A stretch of DNA of 64,000 bases from Rugalucina vietnamica. Lineage: Eukaryota > Mollusca > Bivalvia > Lucinida > Lucinidae. The DNA is taken from assembly GCA_964017185.1 (NCBI GenBank), contig OZ024875.1:25429456-25493455 (forward strand), in the 5' to 3' direction. The notes below the pieces were generated by a model that saw nothing but the letters and a program-made list of their open reading frames with translations, made no database searches and had not been told where the DNA came from. Position 1 is the first letter of the stretch, and each line of letters starts with the position of its first letter. This document shows positions 28,311 to 42,102 of the stretch, piece after piece. The translations under genes and the position numbers were made by a program.

Positions 28311-28879
28311 TTCAAGCACACAAATATTTTGTGTCACGGTGACTGACTCAACTGGGGACTCAACCAACCATTTTTACAGAGAACTTAAATATATTGATAC
28401 ATGCATGCGCAAGCACGGCTTTGGAATCCTGCACATTTTCATTCCGATGTTTGCCGTACCAATTTACGTAATTTAAATGCATGTTTTTGGAATTCGTAAC
28501 AGAAAAAATGTTTTAAACAAAAACCGCGTTCGTTTCCGACCTGCATTCAATCTTTTCAAGGGAAACAACTTATCTTATCAAAATGAAGCTGTTAAATTGA
28601 TCCTAACCTTCCCATTTATCGAATAAATTGACTATTCATGACCGAAATATTTTTCAAATCAAATGGCGTGTACTAAGAGTTTCCTAATTTCAATTCAAAG
28701 CAAAATTTCAATGATTGCAGCTTATCATTTGTAGACTGCACTACACTCTAAATGATTGTTTATTTATCACTATATTTTAGTTAATAAGTGACGAATTAGG
28801 CTAAAATAGGAAAAAAAAAATACAGCAGCAAAGCGGTGACCAGTAACAAAAAAAAAACAAAAAAAAAAAAAAAAAAGAA
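28311..28879. other. E2 interior; second copy of the diverged duplication
   Basis: Gene-free. It ends in an A-rich tract (about 28,810-28,879) immediately before the Ngaro right terminus. Confidence 0.5.
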
Positions 28880-29142
28880 TTTATAGAAAAAAGAACAAGA
28901 TTTGTTTCTATATTTATTTGACATTTGCAATTGGGAACCAGCTCAGCCAATCAGTTTAGCAAAATTAATGGGTTAATAGCTTTAACCCATGCAGTCAAAA
29001 TGTCAATTGTGTCTCGACAATTATTCGAGAATCCTCTAGGCGGAGAATTCTTGAAAGGAAGCCTGGAGACAAATTTTGGTGGAGCCTAAGCAATTGTTCT
29101 GCGAGACTCTGCGGAGACTCATGAACGGTTGCTTGTTGGCCA
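28880..29142 (-). repeat. Ngaro split direct repeat B2
   Basis: 263 bp from TTTATAGAAAAAAGAACAAG to GCTTGTTGGCCA, same as 29,776-30,038. It forms the 3' terminus of the element. Confidence 0.92.
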
Positions 29143-29509
29143 GATCTCCTGTCTCAAGAGCCCTGCGGGGTCTCTTAAAACGGCCCCTTGCTGTGCAATG
29201 AGTTTCTGCGGAAACTCTAGCAAAGCCTGGAGACCTGAGGAACACAGCAGTGATAAATCCGAAGAGGCCTGGTGGTTCATTGGACCCCTTCAGTTAACAT
29301 TTTAAGTCAAATGATTCATTGTTAATATAATTAATTAATTAATTCAGAACCACTCTTATGAAACATGGATTTACCCCAACTGTCATATGGTATAACATTA
29401 TACCTTAGAGTACCAAATAATCAACCAAATAGACTGTATATTGTACTGACTGAGCTGTTTCTTGTAAGGATTGTACTATGACTGGTGGAGCCTGGGGCAG
29501 GATGGTGGG
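29143..29509 (-). other. Ngaro spacer between A2 and B2
   Basis: 367 bp present only once. It holds stem-like GAGAC/GTCTC words (CTCCTGTCTCAAGAGCC, AGCCTGGAGACCTGAGG) similar to words in B, and an (TTAA)n stretch near 29,325. Function unknown. Confidence 0.6.
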
Positions 29510-29775
29510 TATGGTCAAAAATTATGATGTTACTGCTGGCTGACTAAAATAAAACTGAGTGCTGAAGCTGCACCAAAAACAAAGGATGACCTTAGAAGAC
29601 CTGCGAAGTTAAAAATATACCTACTGGGTGAATCTCAGGTCACCAGACAGTTCAAAGACCTCTGGTGGAAGAATTCAGAATTGTAGAAACTCACTTAGAA
29701 GATGTAGTATGCTGGTTGGTGATAAATGCTTATTTCTATAAACAACCTTATATGATTCAATCATATAAGTATCCA
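29510..29775 (-). repeat. Ngaro split direct repeat A2
   Basis: 266 bp from TATGGTCAAAAATTATGATG to ATAAGTATCCA, same as 34,775-35,040. It abuts B1 directly, as expected for a circle-junction copy. It carries the palindrome CTTATATGATT/C/AATCATATAAG at 29,747-29,769. Confidence 0.92.
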
Positions 29776-30038
29776 TTTATAGAAAAAAGAACAAGATTTG
29801 TTTCTATATTTATTTGACATTTGCAATTGGGAACCAGCTCAGCCAATCAGTTTAGCAAAATTAATGGGTTAATAGCTTTAACCCATGCAGTCAAAATGTC
29901 AATTGTGTCTCGACAATTATTCGAGAATCCTCTAGGCGGAGAATTCTTGAAAGGAAGCCTGGAGACAAATTTTGGTGGAGCCTAAGCAATTGTTCTGCGA
30001 GACTCTGCGGAGACTCATGAACGGTTGCTTGTTGGCCA
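29776..30038 (-). repeat. Ngaro split direct repeat B1
   Basis: Second copy of B, downstream of the recombinase ORF and immediately next to A2. Confidence 0.92.
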
Positions 30039-30844
30039 AAACGATGACAGATTAGCTGAGAGGTCCCTTAAACAGCGTATCTGGAAGAGTTGGCTCCCCA
30101 AAATTAATACCAGTCAGGGTACAAAACTTGTGAAAAGTGATACTAAAACTACTCTAGATTAAATGTAGACTAGTGAATACAATTGATTTAATAATGATCT
30201 AAAACAGTCTGTGAGTCCAAGATGTTCTGCACAGCAAACCGCTGTATAAAATGTAAGTGAATTTTCTACGGCAAGCAAAATGTTCTAGTATGTATGGTAC
30301 TTCCTTAACCGTCTATCAAGTATACCAGCTTAAAAGATAGCTGAAAGTCTCAGGTAAATAGCAAAAGTAAATGCATTTCAGCAGTGGCATGCCAGCAATT
30401 ATAAGATATAAAATCAAGAACTAATGTGTGATGTGAAATTAAATGGACTCCTGTGAATGAATCCTTAGGTAGGTATAATCCAACTACATTTAATGAATTT
30501 ATAACACTGCATTATTCCTTGCACTTTCCACTGAATTAAAATTCCAAACAGAACTGCGAATATTGCTCACAAGCATATATATTCTATATTCACCATTTCA
30601 TGGCTGAGCCCAGGAACAGCAGTCTTGAGCAAGTGCAGTGAAGCTCATAAAGCTGCAAATCAAACAGTCAACTACTACAATATTGTAGTTACGGGGCTAG
30701 GATAAGGCACTGACTATCCAAATTAGTTTGGCTAGCCTGAACCACAAGCGGCACTGACCAAGCTCAATCCTGCTATGCCCTGACTTGTGGCACATGACAC
30801 TATAAAACACATGATTCACTGAATGCTACTTGAATACACATTTT
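30039..30844 (-). other. Ngaro 3' untranslated region
   Basis: About 800 bp between the recombinase stop and B1, with no open frame of interest. Poly(A) words on the minus strand are not distinctive. Confidence 0.6.
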
Positions 30845-31867
30845 TCACTTCTCATTTTTATCAACACACATTTGCCTCTGTGCCCTGGATATTGCACTCT
30901 CTGGTGTATGGATATACCGTATGTAACAGTTGGATGACCAACGCCCCAGGGTCTGTATCAGGTGGTCCTCTACCCCGGCGGCACTGCAACTCGTGGCTGC
31001 CCCATGACGGAACGAATGTGATGAATATTGCCGGTTGTCTAGCCCGAGGTGGTCCAATAGTATCTTCAGTTGTACATTAAAGAACTGTCTTGTAAGCGGT
31101 AACAACTGATTATTTAGGAAAAGGGCATTGTCCTTTGTCTTACTTTCTTCTGGTAAGGCTTTCAGGTAGTTGTTTACAGATACTATAGGACATATATAGT
31201 GCCCTGTAGGAAACATCTGAATTGTAATTCCTTTCTTGAATGGATCAGTTTTTGATGCTTTCAGTGTTAATGATAATTTTGACTGATGCTCATGTAATGT
31301 CACATCACCCATTGTCAGATTAATGTTAGGGTCAAAGTTACCTTTACATGTAAACTCTCCACACCTAAGAAAGCCAAAAAAGGCCACACAGAAAGCGGCT
31401 TCTAGCATTAAGCTCAAGAAAGGGGATAAAATACCCTTTCGCAATGCTGCACATAGTTTCAGCAAAATATCAAATGTAATCGGTAACTTGCGTTTAACAG
31501 TTGGCCCTTGCAAGCGCTTGATGGATCGCAGTATTGTATGCAGCCTGGGTAGATGGCTGCTCCCTGCACACAGTACATTGTCAATTCCTATGCGTAGATA
31601 GAAATATCTTATTCCGCTCAAATACAGTTGAATAGTATTGTACCTCAAATGTAAGTTTCTGTAGCAATGTGCTACAAACAACAACAGTATGTCTTCATTG
31701 ACTGTAGGTAAAGTTCCATCTACACTGTAACTATTCAAAGCTAAAAATGTTCGGAAACACTTCATACCTTGATTATATGCTTGCATTGTCCCATCACTAA
31801 TGGCTTTAGTCCACAAGAAGTCTATCACTGAACTTAAGGGTAAATCACTTCCTGATATGGTACACAT
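30845..31867 (-). CDS. Ngaro tyrosine recombinase
   Basis: 340-residue phage-integrase-fold recombinase that would insert the circular DNA intermediate. An N-terminal SAM-like core-binding region spans about residues 10-120 and the catalytic domain about 125-325. Visible catalytic residues are Arg168 (in FLRCGE), Lys206 (in KASKTDPF), His284 and Arg287 (in HSFRHG), Trp310 (in GRWSS) and the nucleophile Tyr318 (in YIRYIHT). The set is complete, so the enzyme could be active. The ATG (31,865-31,867) lies inside the end of the RT ORF (34-nt overlap, different frame), which suggests reinitiation or frameshifting. Length is typical for Ngaro recombinases. Confidence 0.93.
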   Translation of the reverse strand: MCTISGSDLPLSSVIDFLWTKAISDGTMQAYNQGMKCFRTFLALNSYSVDGTLPTVNEDILLLFVAHCYRNLHLRYNTIQLYLSGIRYFYLRIGIDNVLCAGSSHLPRLHTILRSIKRLQGPTVKRKLPITFDILLKLCAALRKGILSPFLSLMLEAAFCVAFFGFLRCGEFTCKGNFDPNINLTMGDVTLHEHQSKLSLTLKASKTDPFKKGITIQMFPTGHYICPIVSVNNYLKALPEESKTKDNALFLNNQLLPLTRQFFNVQLKILLDHLGLDNRQYSSHSFRHGAATSCSAAGVEDHLIQTLGRWSSNCYIRYIHTPESAISRAQRQMCVDKNEK

Positions 31868-33465
31868 GGAACTGGTTCCTTCTCCGCATTTGGGGCTAGG
31901 CGTCGGAAGCGATCCATCTGAAAACGTGAAATCGAGTCACTTATACCATTATCTTCTGATCGAACATGTTCAGCATAGAAACTAAAATTGTTTGTAGCAG
32001 CTAACCATGTTAGTCTTCGCATCAAAAGCATAATGTTAGAACAAGGAGACCTTCCTTTACGGAGAATATAAACACAGCTCAAATTGTCACAATTGAAAAT
32101 TATGCGCTTCTTTGTCCACTGTTTGCCCCACAAAATGGCTGCCATTACAATGGGGTAGAGTTCTAATAAGGCCATTGACAATAATTTATCATTATTGACA
32201 CTCATAGATAGTTCTTCTGGCCACGAGTCTTGAAACCACTTGCCAGCAAAATATCCACCAAATCCTTTTGTGGAAGAAGCGTCAGTATATAGCTCTATAT
32301 CATCATTAGTAACAACACTGTCAATGAAAAAAGACACACCATTCCAATTTTGTAAAAATGACAACCACATTTTCATATCTCTCCTACAATCATCATTGAA
32401 AAATACAATGTCATGATTATTATTTTTTCCCCGAATGAGTTTAAGCAAATAGGACATAAAACTACGTCCTGGCACTACAACCTTTGAAGCAAAACTCATG
32501 TGACCCAGCAAGATTAACATTTTCACCTTTGTACAAGATTCCATTTTTGAATATTTGTGCAGCATTTCTGTTAGTCTCTGAACTTTATCCAATGGCAACC
32601 GAGCTAACATATTCACTGAGTCTAAGATGATACCTAAATATTCCAGTTCTGTCACAGGCCCAACAGTTTTCTTCGCGGATAGAGGAATATGTAATTTATT
32701 GAATATCATTGATAAAACAGCCATTGTTCTATATCCTTTTTCTGAGGCATTGTCAACAGCAAGGAAGTCATCTAATAAATGAATGACATTGTCTACTTTG
32801 TAGTTGTTCATAGCAATCCAACATATAGCCACTGATAGCTGGTCAAATATTTTTGGACTGGAACGACATCCAAAAACTAGTCTCTTGTAGAAATAATACA
32901 GATTTTTCCATTTTATTCCGAACAGATGCCAAACTCCAGGGGACAGGGGTATTAACTTAAACGCGTCACAAATATCTAGCTTGGAGAGCATTGCCCCTAC
33001 CCCTGCTTTTTTAATTAACTCTATAGCATCATCTACTGTCACATATGACAGTGAATGAAGGTCTTTGTCAATTAATTCATTTATACTTGGAATATTTTCA
33101 TTGTCATATGGTGCTGATAAATCCACAATCAAGCGTTTTTTCTTTGAATATTTTCCTTCTGCAATTCCTATTGGTGATATTCTGTAAGTTTCAAAGGGTG
33201 CTTTCTTGAAGGGTCCCAGTAAATAACCTTTTTCAATTTCTGACTGAATTAGTTCTTCTACCACCTGTGGCTGTAATTTTGCTGATCTGTTGTTTCCACA
33301 TTCTAAAGTTCCACTTGGACAATTATCAATGCCAGCATCAAAACCATGAACTAAGCCTGAACACAGTTTTTCAACAAATTCTGAATCAGGATGGTTAGAC
33401 AACTCTAATTTTAACTGTTCAATATTTATTGGGGTAGAAGCCTGATATTCCAGATCACCATGCAG
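31834..33465 (-). CDS. Ngaro reverse transcriptase-RNase H
   Basis: Open from the codon after the gag stop (33,465) to 31,834. There is no ATG near the start; the first codons are CTG CAT GGT, so expression probably needs readthrough of the gag TGA. Numbered from the TTG at 33,402, the RT palm carries Asp143 (KLDICDAF) and the LLDD box (Asp211-Asp212, in place of YxDD). The RNase H shows Asp374 (YTDAS), Glu414 (LLELYP), Asp439 (NCDN) and Asp489 (GISDSISR), all intact. It synthesises and processes the element's cDNA. Length (about 540 residues) fits a DIRS-order RT-RH without extra domains. Confidence 0.93.
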   Translation of the reverse strand: MHGDLEYQASTPINIEQLKLELSNHPDSEFVEKLCSGLVHGFDAGIDNCPSGTLECGNNRSAKLQPQVVEELIQSEIEKGYLLGPFKKAPFETYRISPIGIAEGKYSKKKRLIVDLSAPYDNENIPSINELIDKDLHSLSYVTVDDAIELIKKAGVGAMLSKLDICDAFKLIPLSPGVWHLFGIKWKNLYYFYKRLVFGCRSSPKIFDQLSVAICWIAMNNYKVDNVIHLLDDFLAVDNASEKGYRTMAVLSMIFNKLHIPLSAKKTVGPVTELEYLGIILDSVNMLARLPLDKVQRLTEMLHKYSKMESCTKVKMLILLGHMSFASKVVVPGRSFMSYLLKLIRGKNNNHDIVFFNDDCRRDMKMWLSFLQNWNGVSFFIDSVVTNDDIELYTDASSTKGFGGYFAGKWFQDSWPEELSMSVNNDKLLSMALLELYPIVMAAILWGKQWTKKRIIFNCDNLSCVYILRKGRSPCSNIMLLMRRLTWLAATNNFSFYAEHVRSEDNGISDSISRFQMDRFRRLAPNAEKEPVPCVPYQEVIYP

Positions 33466-33468
33466 TCA
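33466..33468 (-). promoter_or_regulatory. candidate readthrough stop between gag and RT
   Basis: Context AAT AAG TGA CTG CAT. The frame is open on both sides: gag upstream, and 21 sense codons then RT downstream, with no other stop. UGA followed by CU resembles the known leaky UGA-CUA context, so readthrough is a reasonable inference. A simple inactivating substitution of an original sense codon is the alternative. Confidence 0.55.
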
Positions 33469-34686
33469 CTTATTTTGTTTCTCAACCCTTGTTTCTTCAC
33501 CTTTTTTCTCATTTGTCTCTGACTTATCCTTTGGTTTATTTTTACACTGACTTTTTGGATGAGGGCTGTGACAATCATAGCAGAGATGGAGAAATTTACA
33601 GTTTTGTTTCCTGTAACATGTACGCTCATTATAGTTATGGCACAGTTGTATACCTTGAAAGGAAGCATTAGGTCTGTCAGCTTTCTTGATGGTACTGGAT
33701 GATGAATTATTTAAATTGATCCCTGTGTTGTATTGATTCTGACCCTTTTTAAAATTTGGATTGACCAGCATAGGGCAAAACTCTGTTGAATGTGTGATGC
33801 TTGAACAGAGCCCACAGTTATTGGCTTTCATTCCTGCGAAGATGGTGCAATACAAGTTATTGTCTCTGATGGACCAATCTACTTTAACATGGTGTTGCTG
33901 TAACAAAGCTGCTGCCTTAGCCGAAAAGGCCTTATGGTAATCATAGAATCTCGTGCCGCCAAACTGAGTTGCCATTTCTACTATATCTCTCTCATACTGA
34001 TCCAATTCCACCCTTCGGTTAGGCAGAGCTTCGCAAACAATGTTTTTATATTTTGAGAAAGCCATAATAAATTCCCCCAGTGTGAGGCTTTTTGCCAGCC
34101 TTGGGTCTCCAGGTTTCATAACATATTCTATTCCGTCGAAGTCAACTCTTCTGTACTCTGAGGTACTTTCATTGTTTGGTATCAACAGTAAAGCTAGATT
34201 TATGTCCTTACCGGCAATTATTTGGTTGCGCAATTGTGAGGACACCACCTCAACATTCCTGTATCTTTCTGCAGGCACTCCTGGCTGTGTTAGAATCCCA
34301 CCAGCTCCGGTATGAAAATGGGCATTATCTTGAAACACATTTTGTTGCAAAGCAGGAGTTTGTGTTCTAGTGTTGTCTGGTGGGTGTTGACCAATGGACT
34401 GTCCAGTCTGATTAACTACTGTACTGTTCGCCAGCAGGTCTCTTTGCAGAGAGTCTCTTTGCTGGAATGGTGGAGTCTCTAGTGCAGAGTTTATTCCAGC
34501 TGGCACTGTATTTCTGGTGTCCTTATTGTCAGTGTATATCTTCACCAAGTCATTTACTTTCAAACTTGATGGCACTTTAATTCCAATGTTTTTTATTTCT
34601 GCTAATAATTTTTCTTTTGTCCAATTTTTGGGGTTTTCAGTGTCTAATTCAATGGCTACCGAATGTTTTCTTTTCCTAGTTTCCAT
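33466..34686 (-). CDS. Ngaro gag-like protein
   Basis: 406 residues from an ATG at 34,686 to TGA at 33,466-33,468. The N-terminal segment at about 22-54 (WTKEKLLAEIKNIGIKVP...DLVKIY) resembles a SAP DNA-binding motif. Residues 140-290 look like the conserved DIRS/Ngaro nucleocapsid-type domain (FGGTRFYDYHKAFSAKAAAL). Metal-binding motifs follow: C291-x2-C-x4-H-x4-C304, a CCCH-like finger 349-367 (C-x7-C-x5-C-x3-H) and C369-x2-C-x3-H-x4-C381. The lysine/glutamate-rich tail ends at the stop, which is in frame with RT. It probably binds element RNA. Confidence 0.85.
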   Translation of the reverse strand: METRKRKHSVAIELDTENPKNWTKEKLLAEIKNIGIKVPSSLKVNDLVKIYTDNKDTRNTVPAGINSALETPPFQQRDSLQRDLLANSTVVNQTGQSIGQHPPDNTRTQTPALQQNVFQDNAHFHTGAGGILTQPGVPAERYRNVEVVSSQLRNQIIAGKDINLALLLIPNNESTSEYRRVDFDGIEYVMKPGDPRLAKSLTLGEFIMAFSKYKNIVCEALPNRRVELDQYERDIVEMATQFGGTRFYDYHKAFSAKAAALLQQHHVKVDWSIRDNNLYCTIFAGMKANNCGLCSSITHSTEFCPMLVNPNFKKGQNQYNTGINLNNSSSSTIKKADRPNASFQGIQLCHNYNERTCYRKQNCKFLHLCYDCHSPHPKSQCKNKPKDKSETNEKKGEETRVEKQNK

Positions 34687-34774
34687 AATGAATATTTTAT
34701 TGTTTTAGATGTAATACATTTTAAAGTCCAACCAAAAGTCTTATTATATTTCCATTAATACAAAAGTGATCAAA
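34687..34774 (-). other. Ngaro leader between A1 and gag
   Basis: Short AT-rich 5' segment. No clear promoter motif. Confidence 0.4.
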
Positions 34775-35040
34775 TATGGTCAAAAATTATGATGTTACTG
34801 CTGGCTGACTAAAATAAAACTGAGTGCTGAAGCTGCACCAAAAACAAAGGATGACCTTAGAAGACCTGCGAAGTTAAAAATATACCTACTGGGTGAATCT
34901 CAGGTCACCAGACAGTTCAAAGACCTCTGGTGGAAGAATTCAGAATTGTAGAAACTCACTTAGAAGATGTAGTATGCTGGTTGGTGATAAATGCTTATTT
35001 CTATAAACAACCTTATATGATTCAATCATATAAGTATCCA
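34775..35040 (-). repeat. Ngaro split direct repeat A1
   Basis: 5' terminal copy of A. The 23-bp palindrome (11-bp arms around one base) sits at 35,012-35,034, six bases from the element end. Confidence 0.92.
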
Positions 35041-35497
35041 TATATGACAACACCATTTAACCACTTTCCCTCAAAGTAGGCAGTCCAACTTAGGTCCGTT
35101 AGCAGTGACTAAGTTAGATTTGTCATACGAACACGGTAAATGATGCATGTAAGTAAGCCAACCATAATTTGTACACGATGCACAATGAAAAATAAAACTG
35201 CGAGCCGCTTTCGTGAATGGGACAATGTAATAAACTACTACTAGTTACTTGCTGTAATTATTATATAGCGTAGGTGTACATGGCCTTCGAAAAAATGACA
35301 CATTTATTTAAATCTAACAAACATTTCTCTCACAGAAGCAAGTTGAGAATGGTAAAAGTTTATTGTCAAATACTCCGTTGATTTTTGCCTTCGATCTCAG
35401 TTCAGCATTCAACGAATAGATGCGGTATAGGCGAGAAGCAGCTCACTTTTCATGTGGATTCTTGTACAGAAAATATGCGAAAAGTTGATATTTAACT
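35041..35497. other. E2 interior, gene-free
   Basis: Nothing recognised. Confidence 0.45.
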
Positions 35498-35598: not shown

Positions 35599-35985
35599 TA
35601 TGAAATTTGGAAAAGTTTATGTAAAATCTCTGAATTTCTTGCAAAAGCGCGCCATCATGGCGTCTTGAGTCACTATTGGTGACGTAACGTGACGTTGTGA
35701 CGTCGATTCGAAGTCCATGCGTGAAAGAGTTGACGTCATGACGTCAATCGGCAGCAATGGCATTATTATTCAAGGATTTTATTTTTTTCCAAATTCTTAG
35801 GCCGCTAGATGCCAGACTTGCCTCATGCCCTTTCCCTTTTCGCCGCGAAACACAGCGAAATACGGCGAAATACCTGTAAATGTTAACATAAAATAATTAT
35901 TTTTTAATTTAATGACAACACTATGATTCATCTGTTCCATAGATCATTATTTCATAATATGTATGATTATACATGTATAGAAATA

Positions 35986-36465
35986 TTTACATTTTTATTG
36001 CAATCGCCCTAGATGAAAGTATCTTTCTTGCTGTTCTTCATTTCCCAATGAAAAACATTAAGTCACGTGATCTTAGAGGCTACGCCTATGGGTGGAGCGA
36101 CGTCAAAACAAGCCAGTGACGTTGTTTGTTTACTCTTGTTAGCGTGACGTCGGTCACGTATCGCCATGACGTTAAGCGCGAAAATTTGACGTTTTGGCTA
36201 TTCCAAAATTACGTTAAGTCGGATTCAATGTCAAATAAAATGAAAATGAGCGATGATGTGTGCAATTAAAAATCTGATACTTGATAAATAATATAAAATG
36301 TAAATATAAGTATTGAAATTCAGATTTTAGCTTTCACTGGATGATGAAAAACATTAGTTGTTTTAATGTCTCCGAGAAGCCCTTCGGGCTTCACAGACAT
36401 TAAAACAGCCTAATGTTTTTCATCATCCAGTGAAAGCTAAAATCTGAATTTCAATCCTTAAATGA
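35986..36465. mobile_element. insertion in E2 absent from E1, with long palindrome
   Basis: E2 sequence up to ACATGTATAGAAAT and from GAAAACCGTGCATAACGCGA onward is collinear with E1 (inverse of about 41,715-41,745). The intervening ~480 bp is extra in E2. Its right part (36,312-36,455) is a near-perfect palindrome with arms of about 65 bp (ATTGAAATTCAGATTTTAGC ... inverse) around AAGCCCTTCGGGCTT. Confidence 0.7.
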
Positions 36466-36594
36466 AAACCGTGCATAACGCGACTTTGCCAATGGTTTTT
36501 CGTACGTGGTACGATAGCGAAATCACAGATTGACGAAAATAATTATAACGTAATGCGCCAGCTCGTTGAATCTAACTTTGTTGTTTGTTTGTTT

Positions 36595-36860
36595 GAATAG
36601 ATGCTTTACGTCCTAATCAACAGCAATGGTCATGTCGGGACGCTGCCTCTATTTTATGGGACATGTTTGAAATATAACGATCCCTCTAAGCCAATACTGC
36701 TTATATGTATGGATGGTTTTACCTGAAACCATTTTTCGTAGGCAGACACAGACCTGAGCGGTAAACCTGTAATCAGATGATCAGCCAATAGCTTATAAGT
36801 TTTGCCTGGAGGCACAAGCAGTCTATATATTTGTTAAGGTCCCAATAGGCAGGGGCCATC
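36595..36860 (-). repeat. GTCCCGACATGACC dispersed repeat, copy 3 (in E2)
   Basis: Inverse orientation: CAATGGTCATGTCGGGACGC, GACCTGAGCGGTAAACC, TTGCCTGGAGGCACAAGC. It lies at the homologous position to the copy at 41,322 in E1, so it predates the split of E1 and E2. Confidence 0.75.
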
Positions 36861-37824
36861 TAACTTTGTGCCTTGTTTTGTAGCAGAAAAATTGTCTAAA
36901 GGGTAATGCTAAATAAACAGTTAGATTCCTTACATTCTTTTTTGTAAATTTTCCTGAACTACGATAACTTAATTTGAGCTCAACCATGTAAAAACGACAA
37001 AACAAAAAGAGGCATATTGACATTTGGGTACCCTCTATGATAGCCAGCATAAGACTAATCGCAATCATATCGATCTATACATTATACTTGCCTTGTAGAA
37101 GTACAACTAGCGAAGATCATTTTAACAGTCAACAGTCCCATGGTGACAACACTTTCAGGGTAATACATGTATACCGGTTTTGCTCAGGTACGCCCAACGA
37201 ATATAGGAATCGAACACAGGACATTTAGTTTCCGGTCAATTCCTTAAATCCACCATTAGGCTTCTGCGCTCAACTTTGATCTAATTAATCTAATGCGGCA
37301 TGCGCTCATATTGCCGCGGTGCGTACACGGCCCTTACTGTATATATGTGTTCAAAACTAAACTGAAAACTTCATATACTGACGTCAGTACTTTGTTTTAA
37401 ACATATAATCTTCCCTTTTCTAGTGTATTGCGCCTTGTATACAATGAGGTTTTGTCATTCGATATTCGACGTGTTCCAAGCCATTAGTACATGAGGATTT
37501 TGGAAGGAACACAACACGCTGTTAAACTCAAAACGGTTAGCAAAAATCGACAATTTCGACACAATTTTGTACATGTACGTTTCTGTATTGCTCGTATTCG
37601 ACCGAATATTGTATCGACCTGGTGAAGGTCGTATGCGACCAAATGTCGTTTCGACTAAATTGATTTCACCGAAATGGCATCAACTTGACGTAATCGAAAA
37701 TCATTGAATGATGCTTTTAGCAGTGTCATTAACCACAGGCGATTAAATGTCTAAAACAGAGTTGAAGCCGATTGCTTCATCATGTTGAATTCAAAGACTT
37801 GTATTAATATATGGGATGGGATCG
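36861..37824. other. E2 family body
   Basis: Collinear (inverse) with E1 about 40,530-41,320. Contains TCGACCGAATATTGTATCGA-like and GTCGTATGCGACC words. No coding exon. Confidence 0.55.
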
Positions 37825-38032
37825 CGGTGGCATAGTTGTATAGGTGGCATCAGACTCCGAATCGAGAGGTCCTGAGTTCGATCCGCACTGGCGACACCGT
37901 GTTGTGTCCTTGAGCAAAGCACATTGATTACCCACAGTACTATTAATACCCAGGAAATGGTAGCACCGTCCAGACATGACTAAAAAATTGGTGACTGGGA
38001 CGTCCAGCCTCAATACAAGCAAACAAATCTGT
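37825..38032 (+). repeat. tRNA-derived SINE (in E2)
   Basis: Pol III B box GAGTTCGATCC near 37,875 after a degenerate A box (GGTGGCATAGTTG). The tail GACTGGGACGTCCAGCCTCA runs into ATACAAGCAAACAAAT. The counterpart in E1 is at 40,325-40,535 in inverse orientation. Confidence 0.7.
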
Positions 38033-38399
38033 GGGCAATCATACCATGAAAATTGCTAACGCCGCTATGAGCTTTTGTCTGTTAATTAAGCTAGATAATA
38101 GGATCTAACATTATCGGGTAAGTCTGATTAATCTGAAAAAGAAGCATGAAAATATACACAAAAACCAATAATCAGGGTCTCAGAAACTTCAAAGTAGTAA
38201 AGGCACGAATAAAACACGATGATAATACAAAATTGAAAAGAAAACAAATTTGAAAAGTAATAGATGCATACAAATTAAAATGAAATTTAAACAATAAAAC
38301 TGTTGTGACTGTCGGGACTAAAACGATAATTATACAAAATTGAGACGTAAACAAAATATTGATACAACTTGAAATGAAATAAAAACATCCCATTAAAAT

Positions 38400-38651
38400 T
38401 TTGTAACTGTCGTCTTTTTCGCAGCGAAACACCGCGAAACACCGGTCAATTGATTTTATGCGTTATAACAGGTAAACTTTTTTCGCCGTGTTCCGTCGCG
38501 AAATTTCGCCGTGAAATCTGGAATTTCGCGGCGGAATTTCGCCGCGAAATTCCGCGCTGACTTTTATTTTACACACAATTTTGCAGCGAAATTTTGCAAT
38601 TAGCCGTTAACAAATTAGCCGTTTTATGGGTCTTTAGCCATAACACCACTG
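38400..38651 (-). repeat. E2 terminus with TTCGCGGCGAAA palindromes
   Basis: Closely spaced TTTCGCAGCGAAA, TTTCGCCGTGAAA, TTTCGCGGCGGAA and TTTCGCCGCGAAA motifs followed by the 20-bp terminal repeat. It is the inverse of E1's left end at 20,695-20,927. Confidence 0.85.
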
Positions 38652-39982
38652 TATGGTAAAAACTACTCAAAATTCTTCTTCTCCAGAACCTGCAGGCCAA
38701 TTTTCATGAAACTTGGCATGTAGCATTTGGGACTTCAGCCCATTAATTTAGGTTAAGGTCAAACCTAATGGAGTAGATGAAGGTATGTGATTAATATAGG
38801 TTAAGGTCATCTCTTGACCTTGGCCTGTCTGTCGTCCATACACACTTTTCAAAGATCTTCTTCTCTGAAACTGCTTAGCCAGTCAAAGTGAAATTTTATG
38901 TGGAGCATTCATGGGTAGGGGAGACGAAAGTTTGATAGTGAAATCCAGGTCACATGACAAAGATGGCCGCCACACCCATATATGGTAAAAACCACTCAAA
39001 AATCTTCTTCTCCAGAACCGGCAGGCCTATTTTCATGAAACTTGGCATGGAGCATTTGGGACTCCAGCCCATCATAGTTTGATCAAATGATGACCCTAAG
39101 ATGACCTTGACCTATTTTATGGCAATTTCAATTTTGGAAACATAGGCTTTTACATGGTAAAAGTGAAAACTATGGAATTTTTGAAAACTGTTGCAGCCTG
39201 AGACTAGAAAAGTGGTAGATGCAAACAACTAATGGAGTAGATAAAGGTATATAATTAATTTAGGTCAAGGTCATCTTTTGACCTTGGCCAGTCTGTCGTC
39301 CATACACACTTTTCAAAGATCTTCTTCTCTGAAACTGCTTGGCCAATCAAAGTGAAATTTTATGTGGAGCGTCCATGGGTGTGGAGCGTCCATGGGTAGG
39401 GGGAACGAAAGTTTGATCGCAAAATTCAGGTCACATGACCAAGATGGCCGCCATGCCCAACTATGGTAAAAATCACTCAAAAATCTTCTTCTCCAGAACC
39501 TGGCTGGCCGATTTACGCGAAACTTGGTATGTAGCATTTTGGACTCCAGCCCATCATAGTTTGTTGAAATGATGACCTTAGGATGACCTTGACTTATTTT
39601 ACGGCAAGGTCAATTTTGGAAACATAGGCTTTTACATGGGAAAAGGCGAAAACAATGGATATTTTGGAAACTGTTGCAGCCTGAAACCTGAAAGTTGATA
39701 GATGCAGACAACTAATGGAGTCAATGAAGGTAAGTAATTAATGAAGGCCAAGGTCATTTCTTGACCTTGACCCAAGGTCATTTAAATATCAAAATTAAAA
39801 TTATGGTTTTCTCAGAAATCACTGGGTTTGGAAACTATTGCAGCCTGAGACCTGAAACTTTGCGGATGCAGACAACTCAATAAAGGTGTGTGAGTATTCA
39901 AGGTCAAGGTCATTTCTTGATGACCTAATACTCCAAGATCAGGCTTCAGGTGAGCGTTCTCAGGACCAATGGTCCTCTGGTT
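38652..39982 (+). mobile_element. GCTCACC repeat II, right part
   Basis: Continuation of the copy broken at 22,061. Ends with AGGTGAGCGTTCTCAGGACC then AATGGTCCTCTGG. Confidence 0.9.
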
Positions 39983-41321
39983 GTTTAAATTTAATTTTAA
40001 TTTGGATGCTTTTATATCATTTCAGGTCGTATCAATATTTTGTTTTCGTTTCAATTGTGTATACTTATCGTTTTAGTCCCGACAGTCACAAACGTTTAAT
40101 TGTTTAAATTTCATTTTAATTTGTATGCATTTATTTCTTTTCAAGTCATATAAATATTTGTTTTCTTTTATTTGTATGATAATCGTTTAAGTTACATGTT
40201 ATTTTCATGCTTCTTTTTCAGATTAATCAGACTTACGCGATAATATTAGATCCTATATTCTAGTTTAATTAACGGAACAAAAGCTTATAGCGGCATAACA
40301 ATTTTCATAGGATGATTGCCCACAGATTTGTTTGTTTGTATTGAGGCAGAACGTCCCAGTCACCAATTTTTCAGTCATGTCTGGACGGAGCTACCGATTC
40401 CTAGGTATTAAGTAGTACTGTGTGTAGTTAATGTGCCTAACTCAAGGACACAACACGGTGTCGCCAGTGCGAATCAAACTCATGACCTCTCGATTCGGAG
40501 TCTGATGCACTATAACTATGCTACCGTGATCCCAACTCACAGATGTATAAAAGTCTTTAGATTCAACATGATGAAGCAATCTGCTTCAACTGTTCTTTAG
40601 ACATTTAATCGCCTGTGGTAATGACACTGCTAAAAGCATCAGTGAATTTTCCGATTAAGTCAAGTGGACGCCGTATCGTTGAATTCAATTTAGTCGAAAA
40701 GCCATTTGGTCGCATACAACCTCCACCGGGTCGATACGATATTCGTTCGAATACGAGCAGTACAGCAACGTACATGTACAAAACTGTGTCGAAATTGTCA
40801 ATAATTGTCGAGGTCCTTTTGCTAACCGTTCTGAATTAAACCGCGTGTTGTGTGCCTTCTAAAATCCACATGTACGGATGGCTTGGAACACGTACATGCA
40901 TGTCGAATGTCAAAATCTCATTGTATACAACGCACAATACACTAGAAAAAAAGAGGATATATAAAACAAAGTATTGTAGTTCATACTCGTACACTTGTTT
41001 TGTGTAAGCAATGGGTCATATGATGTTTTCAGTTTCGGAACACATATACACAGTAAGGGCCACGAGTACGCACCGTAGTAATATGATGCTGGTATTCATA
41101 GAGGGTGATCAGAGTGGTAACCAGCAAGCCCAAATGTCAAATTTGAATATGTCTCTTTTTGTTTTATCGTTTTTACATGGTTGATCTCAAATTAAGTTAT
41201 CGTAGTTCACACCTTAAACGCTATGAAGTGAAGAAATCGAGTTAAAAAAGAAATCAAGGAATCTTACTGTTAATTGAGCAATACCCTTTAGACAATGTTT
41301 GTGCTACAAAACACAAAATTA
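39983..41321 (+). other. E1 body
   Basis: Inverse-homologous to E2. Includes the SINE at 40,325-40,535 and no gene. The 74-codon frame at 40,615 is not considered coding because its counterpart in E2 is not conserved as a frame. Confidence 0.6.
40325..40535 (-). repeat. tRNA-derived SINE (in E1)
   Basis: Inverse copy with GGATCACGGTAGCATAG, B-box region GAGTTTGATTCGCACTGGCG and tail words AGACATGACTGAAAAATTGG and TGACTGGGACGT. Same site as the SINE in E2. Confidence 0.65.
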
Positions 41322-41615
41322 GATGGCCCCTGCCCATTGGGACCTAAAGAAACATATGGTATGTTTGTGCCTAAAGGCAAAGCTTATACGCTACTGACTG
41401 ATCATCTGATAACTGGTTTACCGCTAAGGTCTGTGCCTGCCTAGGAAAATGGTTTCAAGTCAAACCATTCAAACATATAAGCAGTATTGGCTTAGATGGA
41501 TGGTTATATTTCAACACTTGTTGGATATCATGACGTCCCATAAAATGGAGGCAGCGTCCCAACATGACCATTGCTGTTGATTGGGGCGTAAAGCGTCTAT
41601 TAAAACAAACAAACA
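41322..41615 (+). repeat. GTCCCGACATGACC dispersed repeat, copy 4 (in E1)
   Basis: GGCCCCTGCCCATTGGGACC ... GCAGCGTCCCAACATGACC, then GCTGTTGATTGGGGCGTAAA and AAACAAACAAACAC. Confidence 0.75.
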
Positions 41616-41849
41616 CAGTTAGATTCAACGAGCTGGCTCATTACGTTATAAATATTTTCGTCTATCCTTGATTTCGCTATCGTATCATGTAATACCAATG
41701 GGAAAGTCGCATTATGAACGTTTTTCATTTCTATACATGCATAAATGTACATGCTATTAATGTGCACGTGAATCACGATTTATACTAGGAACAGATGAAT
41801 CATAGTGTGGTCATTAAATTGAAAATAAATAAATTTTTGTTAACATTTA

Positions 41850-42102
41850 CAGGTATTTCGCCATGTTTCGCGGCGAAATAGGAAATTTAACTTTACCTGT
41901 TGTAAGCGTTAAAAAACGAATTTCGCCGTGAAACACGGCGGAATTTCACCGCGAAAAACGTATTTTCGCGGCGAAAAAATTAACCGATTAAACGTTTAAA
42001 TTTTCCCTTGGCCGGTGAAATTTCGCGGTGGTTTCGCCGCGAAAAATCACAAGTGATAAGCGCGAACTGTGCAAAAATGGGTTTTTAGCCATAACACCAC
42101 TG
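41850..42102 (+). repeat. E1 right terminus with TTCGCGGCGAAA palindromes
   Basis: At least six TTTCGC(C/G)GCGAAA-like motifs in 200 bp, then the terminal repeat. Counterpart (inverse) at 22,062-22,285 in E2. Confidence 0.85.

Follow-up and report, generated by a model that had tools for sequence, protein, structure and literature searches.

A conserved UGA-C context at the gag-RT junction of Ngaro-type retrotransposons in Rugalucina vietnamica, with comparative support for stop-codon readthrough

A 64,000-nucleotide stretch of contig OZ024875.1 from the lucinid bivalve Rugalucina vietnamica (the window) carries a minus-strand Ngaro-type element whose gag and reverse transcriptase (RT) genes occupy one reading frame, with a single TGA between them. 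Comparison with diverged relatives in the same genome makes it very probable that Gag-RT is made by readthrough of this UGA. One mRNA would give both products: the majority of ribosomes would terminate at the UGA and release Gag, while a small share would decode it as an amino acid via a near-cognate tRNA, aided by the C and U downstream, and would stay in frame to yield low levels of Gag-RT. UGA readthrough would then determine how much Gag-RT is made relative to Gag, as in MuLV or Tj1. Readthrough itself, how often it occurs, the residue inserted and the use made of the ratio are what we infer from features seen directly, namely the anatomy of the element, the conservation of UGA-C(U), an RT ATG that lies late in most families, and selection ahead of that ATG.

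The element and its gag-RT junction

The element reads, on the minus strand, A1, gag, RT, tyrosine recombinase, B1, A2, B2:

34775..35045, minus strand: A1, the 5' split direct repeat, 271 nt; its partner is A2 (identity 99.6-100%)
33466..34686, minus strand: gag, open frame with ATG at 34686, 406 codons plus TGA
33463..33468, minus strand: junction TGA CTG, candidate readthrough site (TGA at 33468-33466); the same six bases are found in own-family copies
31834..33465, minus strand: RT frame, 543 codons plus TAA (31836-31834); RVT_1 match, E=1.2e-9
30845..31936, minus strand: tyrosine recombinase frame; Phage_integrase match, E=2.1e-8; about 100 nt at its start overlap the last part of RT, in a different frame
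29775..30038, minus strand: B1 repeat, 264 nt, 100% identical to B2
29510..29780, minus strand: A2 repeat, pairs with A1
28879..29142, minus strand: B2 repeat, 3' end of the element, pairs with B1

The assignment to the Ngaro type follows from the order of the split direct repeats (A1 ... B1 A2 B2) and from the presence of a tyrosine recombinase ORF. None of the three ORFs matched a methyltransferase family in Pfam at E<=0.01, which fits Ngaro; at the same threshold no RNase H family was among the Pfam matches of the RT ORF, where RVT_1 was found. The translated gag has a Cys/His-rich stretch in its C-terminal region, followed by a Lys-rich tail, and matched nothing in Pfam above the family cut-offs. 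The near-identity of the A copies and the identity of the B copies indicate a young insertion.

The junction reads CAA AAT AAG TGA CTG CAT GGT GAT CTG, confirming from the minus strand both the single-frame arrangement proposed in the initial annotation and the end of gag given there (AAT AAG TGA CTG CAT). The RT frame begins at 33465, the base right after the TGA, and is in frame with gag. The frame does stay open past the TGA, as had been claimed, but for 543 codons, the entire RT ORF, rather than the 21 originally given. The further statement that RT has no ATG near its start holds as well, the earliest in-frame ATG being codon 159.

At the other end of RT, the recombinase lies in one constant other frame in all ten family representatives compared and opens 85-163 nt ahead of the stop codon of RT; it stays open for 359-383 codons in nine of them and is broken in the F2 copy. 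The first ATG of the recombinase is scattered from -121 to +104 across the representatives. No -1 slippery heptamer is common to these ten RT-recombinase overlaps, which contain scattered matches only. Adjoining the element, positions 35831-41885 form a large inverted repeat with arm pieces at approximately 35.8-38.4 kb and 40.0-41.9 kb; the arms are 82-93% complementary and the centre holds repeats spaced about 330-480 nt apart. Within it, 36304-36463 contains an inverted repeat of 54 nt, 96% complementary, with a gap of 52 nt.

The junction across families and relatives

The host genome (1.09 Gb, 47 contigs) was searched with 601 nt around the junction, giving eight matches at six distinct places, two copies being split by insertions. 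All six own-family copies that cover the site have TGA CTGCA. These copies are 96-100% alike, so the TGA kept among them is by itself weak evidence. More diverged copies came from a search with RT, which listed 83 matches, scored from the best 80 of 958 candidates. Sixty-two loci were read (the 30 first extracted and 32 of the other 53), and at 32 of these the gag C-terminus, the TGA and RT are in line. Three own-family copies found only by the DNA search, together with locus L071 (family F11), bring the junction copies to 36. One own-family place, L027, has a broken RT N-terminus and its site was counted via L003; at L040 and L045 the sequence ends before the junction. Grouping at 80% nucleotide identity gave 11 families, the element's own and ten more with 48-70% RT identity to it; F2, most of F3 and F10 had been dropped from the clustering by an alignment filter and were assigned by eye.

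The TGA is present in 36/36 junction copies, and in every one of the 11 families RT continues the gag frame, interrupted by just one TGA, so that the prediction of a conserved TGA in other copies was borne out well beyond the own family. Some of these copies have gag broken further upstream, the main gag match lying in another frame in L011, L012, L015 and L029; at least 329 open codons precede the TGA in at least one copy of 10 of the 11 families, the longest such frame in F2 being 181 codons. With one representative per family, TGA is followed by C in 11/11 and then by T in 10/11; the third base is A in seven, G in two, and T and C in one each. Thus UGA-CU is found in 10 of 11 families and UGA-CUA in seven, which upholds the earlier remark that the site is close to the leaky UGA-CUA context. 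The codon after the stop in the element studied here is CUG, not the consensus CUA; CTG occupies this place only in the own family and F11, while F3 has CUU and F10 has CGC. The TGAC columns carry 2.0 bits each, against 0.02-1.15 bits for the flanks, taken as 30 bases on the 5' side and, beyond the next codon, 33 bases on the 3' side.

As a control, the RT terminators of the same elements were compared over ten families. There TGA is used in 5/10, followed by C in 2/10 and by CTN in 0/10; the contrast with the junction is significant by Fisher's test for TGA (0.012), for the following C (2e-4) and for CTN (3e-5), kinship being ignored in these values. Likewise, the leucine codon after the stop is CTA in seven of the ten families that have leucine there, against 12% of 748 RT leucine codons (P=3e-5, again ignoring kinship). 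Because a stop codon and the C after it (nearly always CU) have been kept across eleven diverged families, the UGA is probably read through on purpose. On a tree of 33 RT sequences, eight of them less than half filled, the UGA label requires a single change, with support of 43/42 at deep, poorly resolved forks, which is too little to decide for or against one origin.

Other arrangements exist among the relatives. L016 has no stop between gag and RT, which form a single fused frame; the start of gag lies in another. L039 and L046, from one other family, share a layout in which gag terminates with TAA and RT is in a different frame. A distant clade of 24 loci (L047-L070; 33-35% RT identity) has a long upstream frame that is out of frame with RT in seven of the eight loci examined, L048 being ambiguous. 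In fish, the proteins P0192 (Danio) and P0193 (Pimephales) run through the junction in a single frame, with Tyr-Leu and no stop. The outcomes named beforehand as arguing against readthrough (a sense codon at the site, an ATG start for RT, or a frameshift) are therefore not the rule in the UGA clade but occur beside it, in addition to an ATG at RT codon 3 in F7. The mode of recoding seems to shift within the superfamily.

Among the best 120 of 1139 matches in an RT protein search, 116 are 332-576 aa long and four are longer mussel gene models. In a search with gag-RT (best 120 of 340, with a length filter that excludes RT-only proteins under about 522 aa), the closest matches were RT-only (P0001, 99%; P0002, 73%). 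Among the matches listed, all seven single-frame proteins of more than 800 aa from ENA contigs (P0181, P0182, P0183, P0184, P0186, P0187 and P0206) have Trp-Leu in the gag-RT linker, at the place of the stop in UGA-CUN families; this W might be encoded by TGG, or by TGA where gene calling applied code 4. P0125, one of 60 gag relatives listed, has W at the site and continues in frame into RT. Gag ends in K or Q in 36 of these 60, compared with 22% over the preceding 19 positions, kinship being ignored. In viral and genome contigs the patterns were matched, with no relative confirmed at the DNA level. Taken together, we lean towards UGA-CU readthrough being an ancient, clade-wide Ngaro route to Gag-RT, independent of the Tj1 group, with fusion or frame change confined to side branches and the single-frame Trp-Leu representing either UGA-CUN read as Trp or a UGG relic.

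Routes from gag to RT

Six of the 11 representatives have their first RT ATG between codons 159 and 245 (own family 159, F2 161, F3 245, F6 186, F8 186, F10 181) and the others have it earlier (F5a 139, F5b 49, F9 45, F11 52, F4 39, F7 3). In ten of the 11 families, F7 being the exception, this ATG lies beyond a conserved HPD-type motif (codons 22-46). Selection on RT codons 1-158 was estimated from 14 pairs of copies; the values are rough, since most of the diverged pairs are close to saturation in dS. Pairs in which both members lack an ATG in this stretch gave dN/dS of 0.17 (own-F2), 0.13 (F6a-F6b) and 0.14 (F6b-F8), and three more diverged pairs gave 0.08, 0.12 and 0.18. The other eight comprise the own-F3 pair, without a finite dS, and near copies that differ little, at 0 to 0.46 apart from one undefined value and one of 1.5 resting on three changes. 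The codons ahead of the first ATG are thus under purifying selection, which implies that the stretch is translated, by ribosomes that must come from upstream.

A separate start of RT near the gag stop, whether by termination-reinitiation, an internal ribosome entry site or a non-AUG codon such as CUG, would agree with the CTG that directly follows the TGA in the own family and F11, with the ATG at codon 3 in F7, and with the M found near the RT start in many RT-only proteins of other genomes among the matches listed. Gene callers, however, print M for other start codons too, and the codon after the stop is CTA, no usual start codon, in 7/11 families, for which reason CUG initiation was dropped. 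Reinitiation needs no common frame, yet the frame is common to all 11 families; together with the late position of the ATG relative to the conserved motif, this makes separate initiation unlikely. Less likely still is that the stop is spliced out or that RT comes from a transcript of its own. Some Mytilus gene models (P0037, P0189) do join gag to RT without the junction residues, but gene finders skip residues in such models to avoid a stop, and a stop that was removed from the RNA would have no need to remain UGA followed by CU.

The least probable reading, which we consider most improbable, is that the TGA is a functionless nonsense mutation, inherited or recent, or a selenocysteine codon. 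A single change turns CGA or TGG into TGA, and P0125 does carry W at the site, but a functionless stop is hard to reconcile with a TGA in every junction copy of 11 families, with the fixed C next to it and with selection that goes on past it. Selenocysteine was dropped as a candidate because comparison of 28800-35200 with Rfam gave nothing at E<=1, and hence no SECIS family.

Readthrough of the UGA could in principle be stimulated by structure in the RNA, and folding 3' of the stop had been proposed as a check. No excess structure was found there in 13 representatives (z from -1.87 to +2.52; three windows, 100 shuffles each), nor did folds of the alignment lend support (z -0.55 to -1.12). A 3' pseudoknot or stem-loop as stimulator was dropped on these scores and, since structure is not in excess, the short UGA-C-U context is likely to be the main readthrough signal.

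Comparison with known systems

Published systems are described here from the available portions of the papers cited. The closest parallel is provided by the Ty3/Gypsy elements of fission yeasts, in which TGA followed by CTA or CTG stands at the gag-pol junction (PMC10085805). In Tj1, whose pol has no AUG, removal of the stop abolished transposition (PMC4600332, PMC10085805). Tj1, Tosmo1-3 and Tcry1 thus share with the Ngaro elements the arrangement gag-TGA-CT(A/G)-pol in one frame (PMC10085805, PMC4600332), but they are fungal LTR elements that encode a protease and a DDE integrase, and the codon before their stop is fixed as GAA, whereas it varies among the Ngaro families. In MuLV and other gammaretroviruses, gag and pol are likewise in one frame with one stop, readthrough of which yields Gag-Pol; there, however, the stop is UAG, accompanied by a pseudoknot and a purine-rich spacer (PMC2194720), neither of which is supported in Ngaro. 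Candida albicans Tca2 has gag-UGA-pol in one frame but differs in its purine-rich 3' context, and its junction gave no readthrough in S. cerevisiae (PMC2194720), a precedent that, by analogy, would count against readthrough in Ngaro.

In animals, the same six-base context UGA CU(A) is found in cellular genes, among them LDHB, MDH1 and AQP4 (PMC4207609, PMC4359377, PMC12233894), where readthrough produces short C-terminal extensions instead of a fusion to a polymerase. In Ustilago the bases UGA CU are sufficient for readthrough, and in mammals termination at this context is leaky (PMC4207609); the human consensus is UGA CUA, and one human UGA CUU context is weak, at 0.27% (PMC4359377). Within the superfamily, the Danio rerio polyprotein P0192 also has gag and RT in one frame but reads Tyr-Leu-Ser-Thr-Pro at the junction in place of a stop.

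The available text on DIRS and Ngaro elements in PMC3266345, PMC3783388, PMC9210276, PMC8547959 and PMC6681497 describes overlaps or frames and does not mention gag-UGA-RT, nor does that of PMC9004415 and PMC10294476. No report of UGA gag-RT readthrough in tyrosine-recombinase elements was found among the papers listed from the searchable literature, which takes in few subscription journals, so an earlier report is possible. How Gag and RT are balanced in tyrosine-recombinase retrotransposons is not addressed in the papers examined; for one animal clade, the junction suggests an answer that can be tested. Gene callers that terminate at UGA will split such gag-RT genes in two. The diverged families also supply naturally occurring variants of a single short signal. 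What appears to be new is a UGA-CU gag-RT junction in a tyrosine-recombinase element; the same solution is already known from the Tj1-type LTR elements, and the minimal signal UGA CU is thus common to Ngaro and Tj1, two classes that are unrelated in their integration enzyme.
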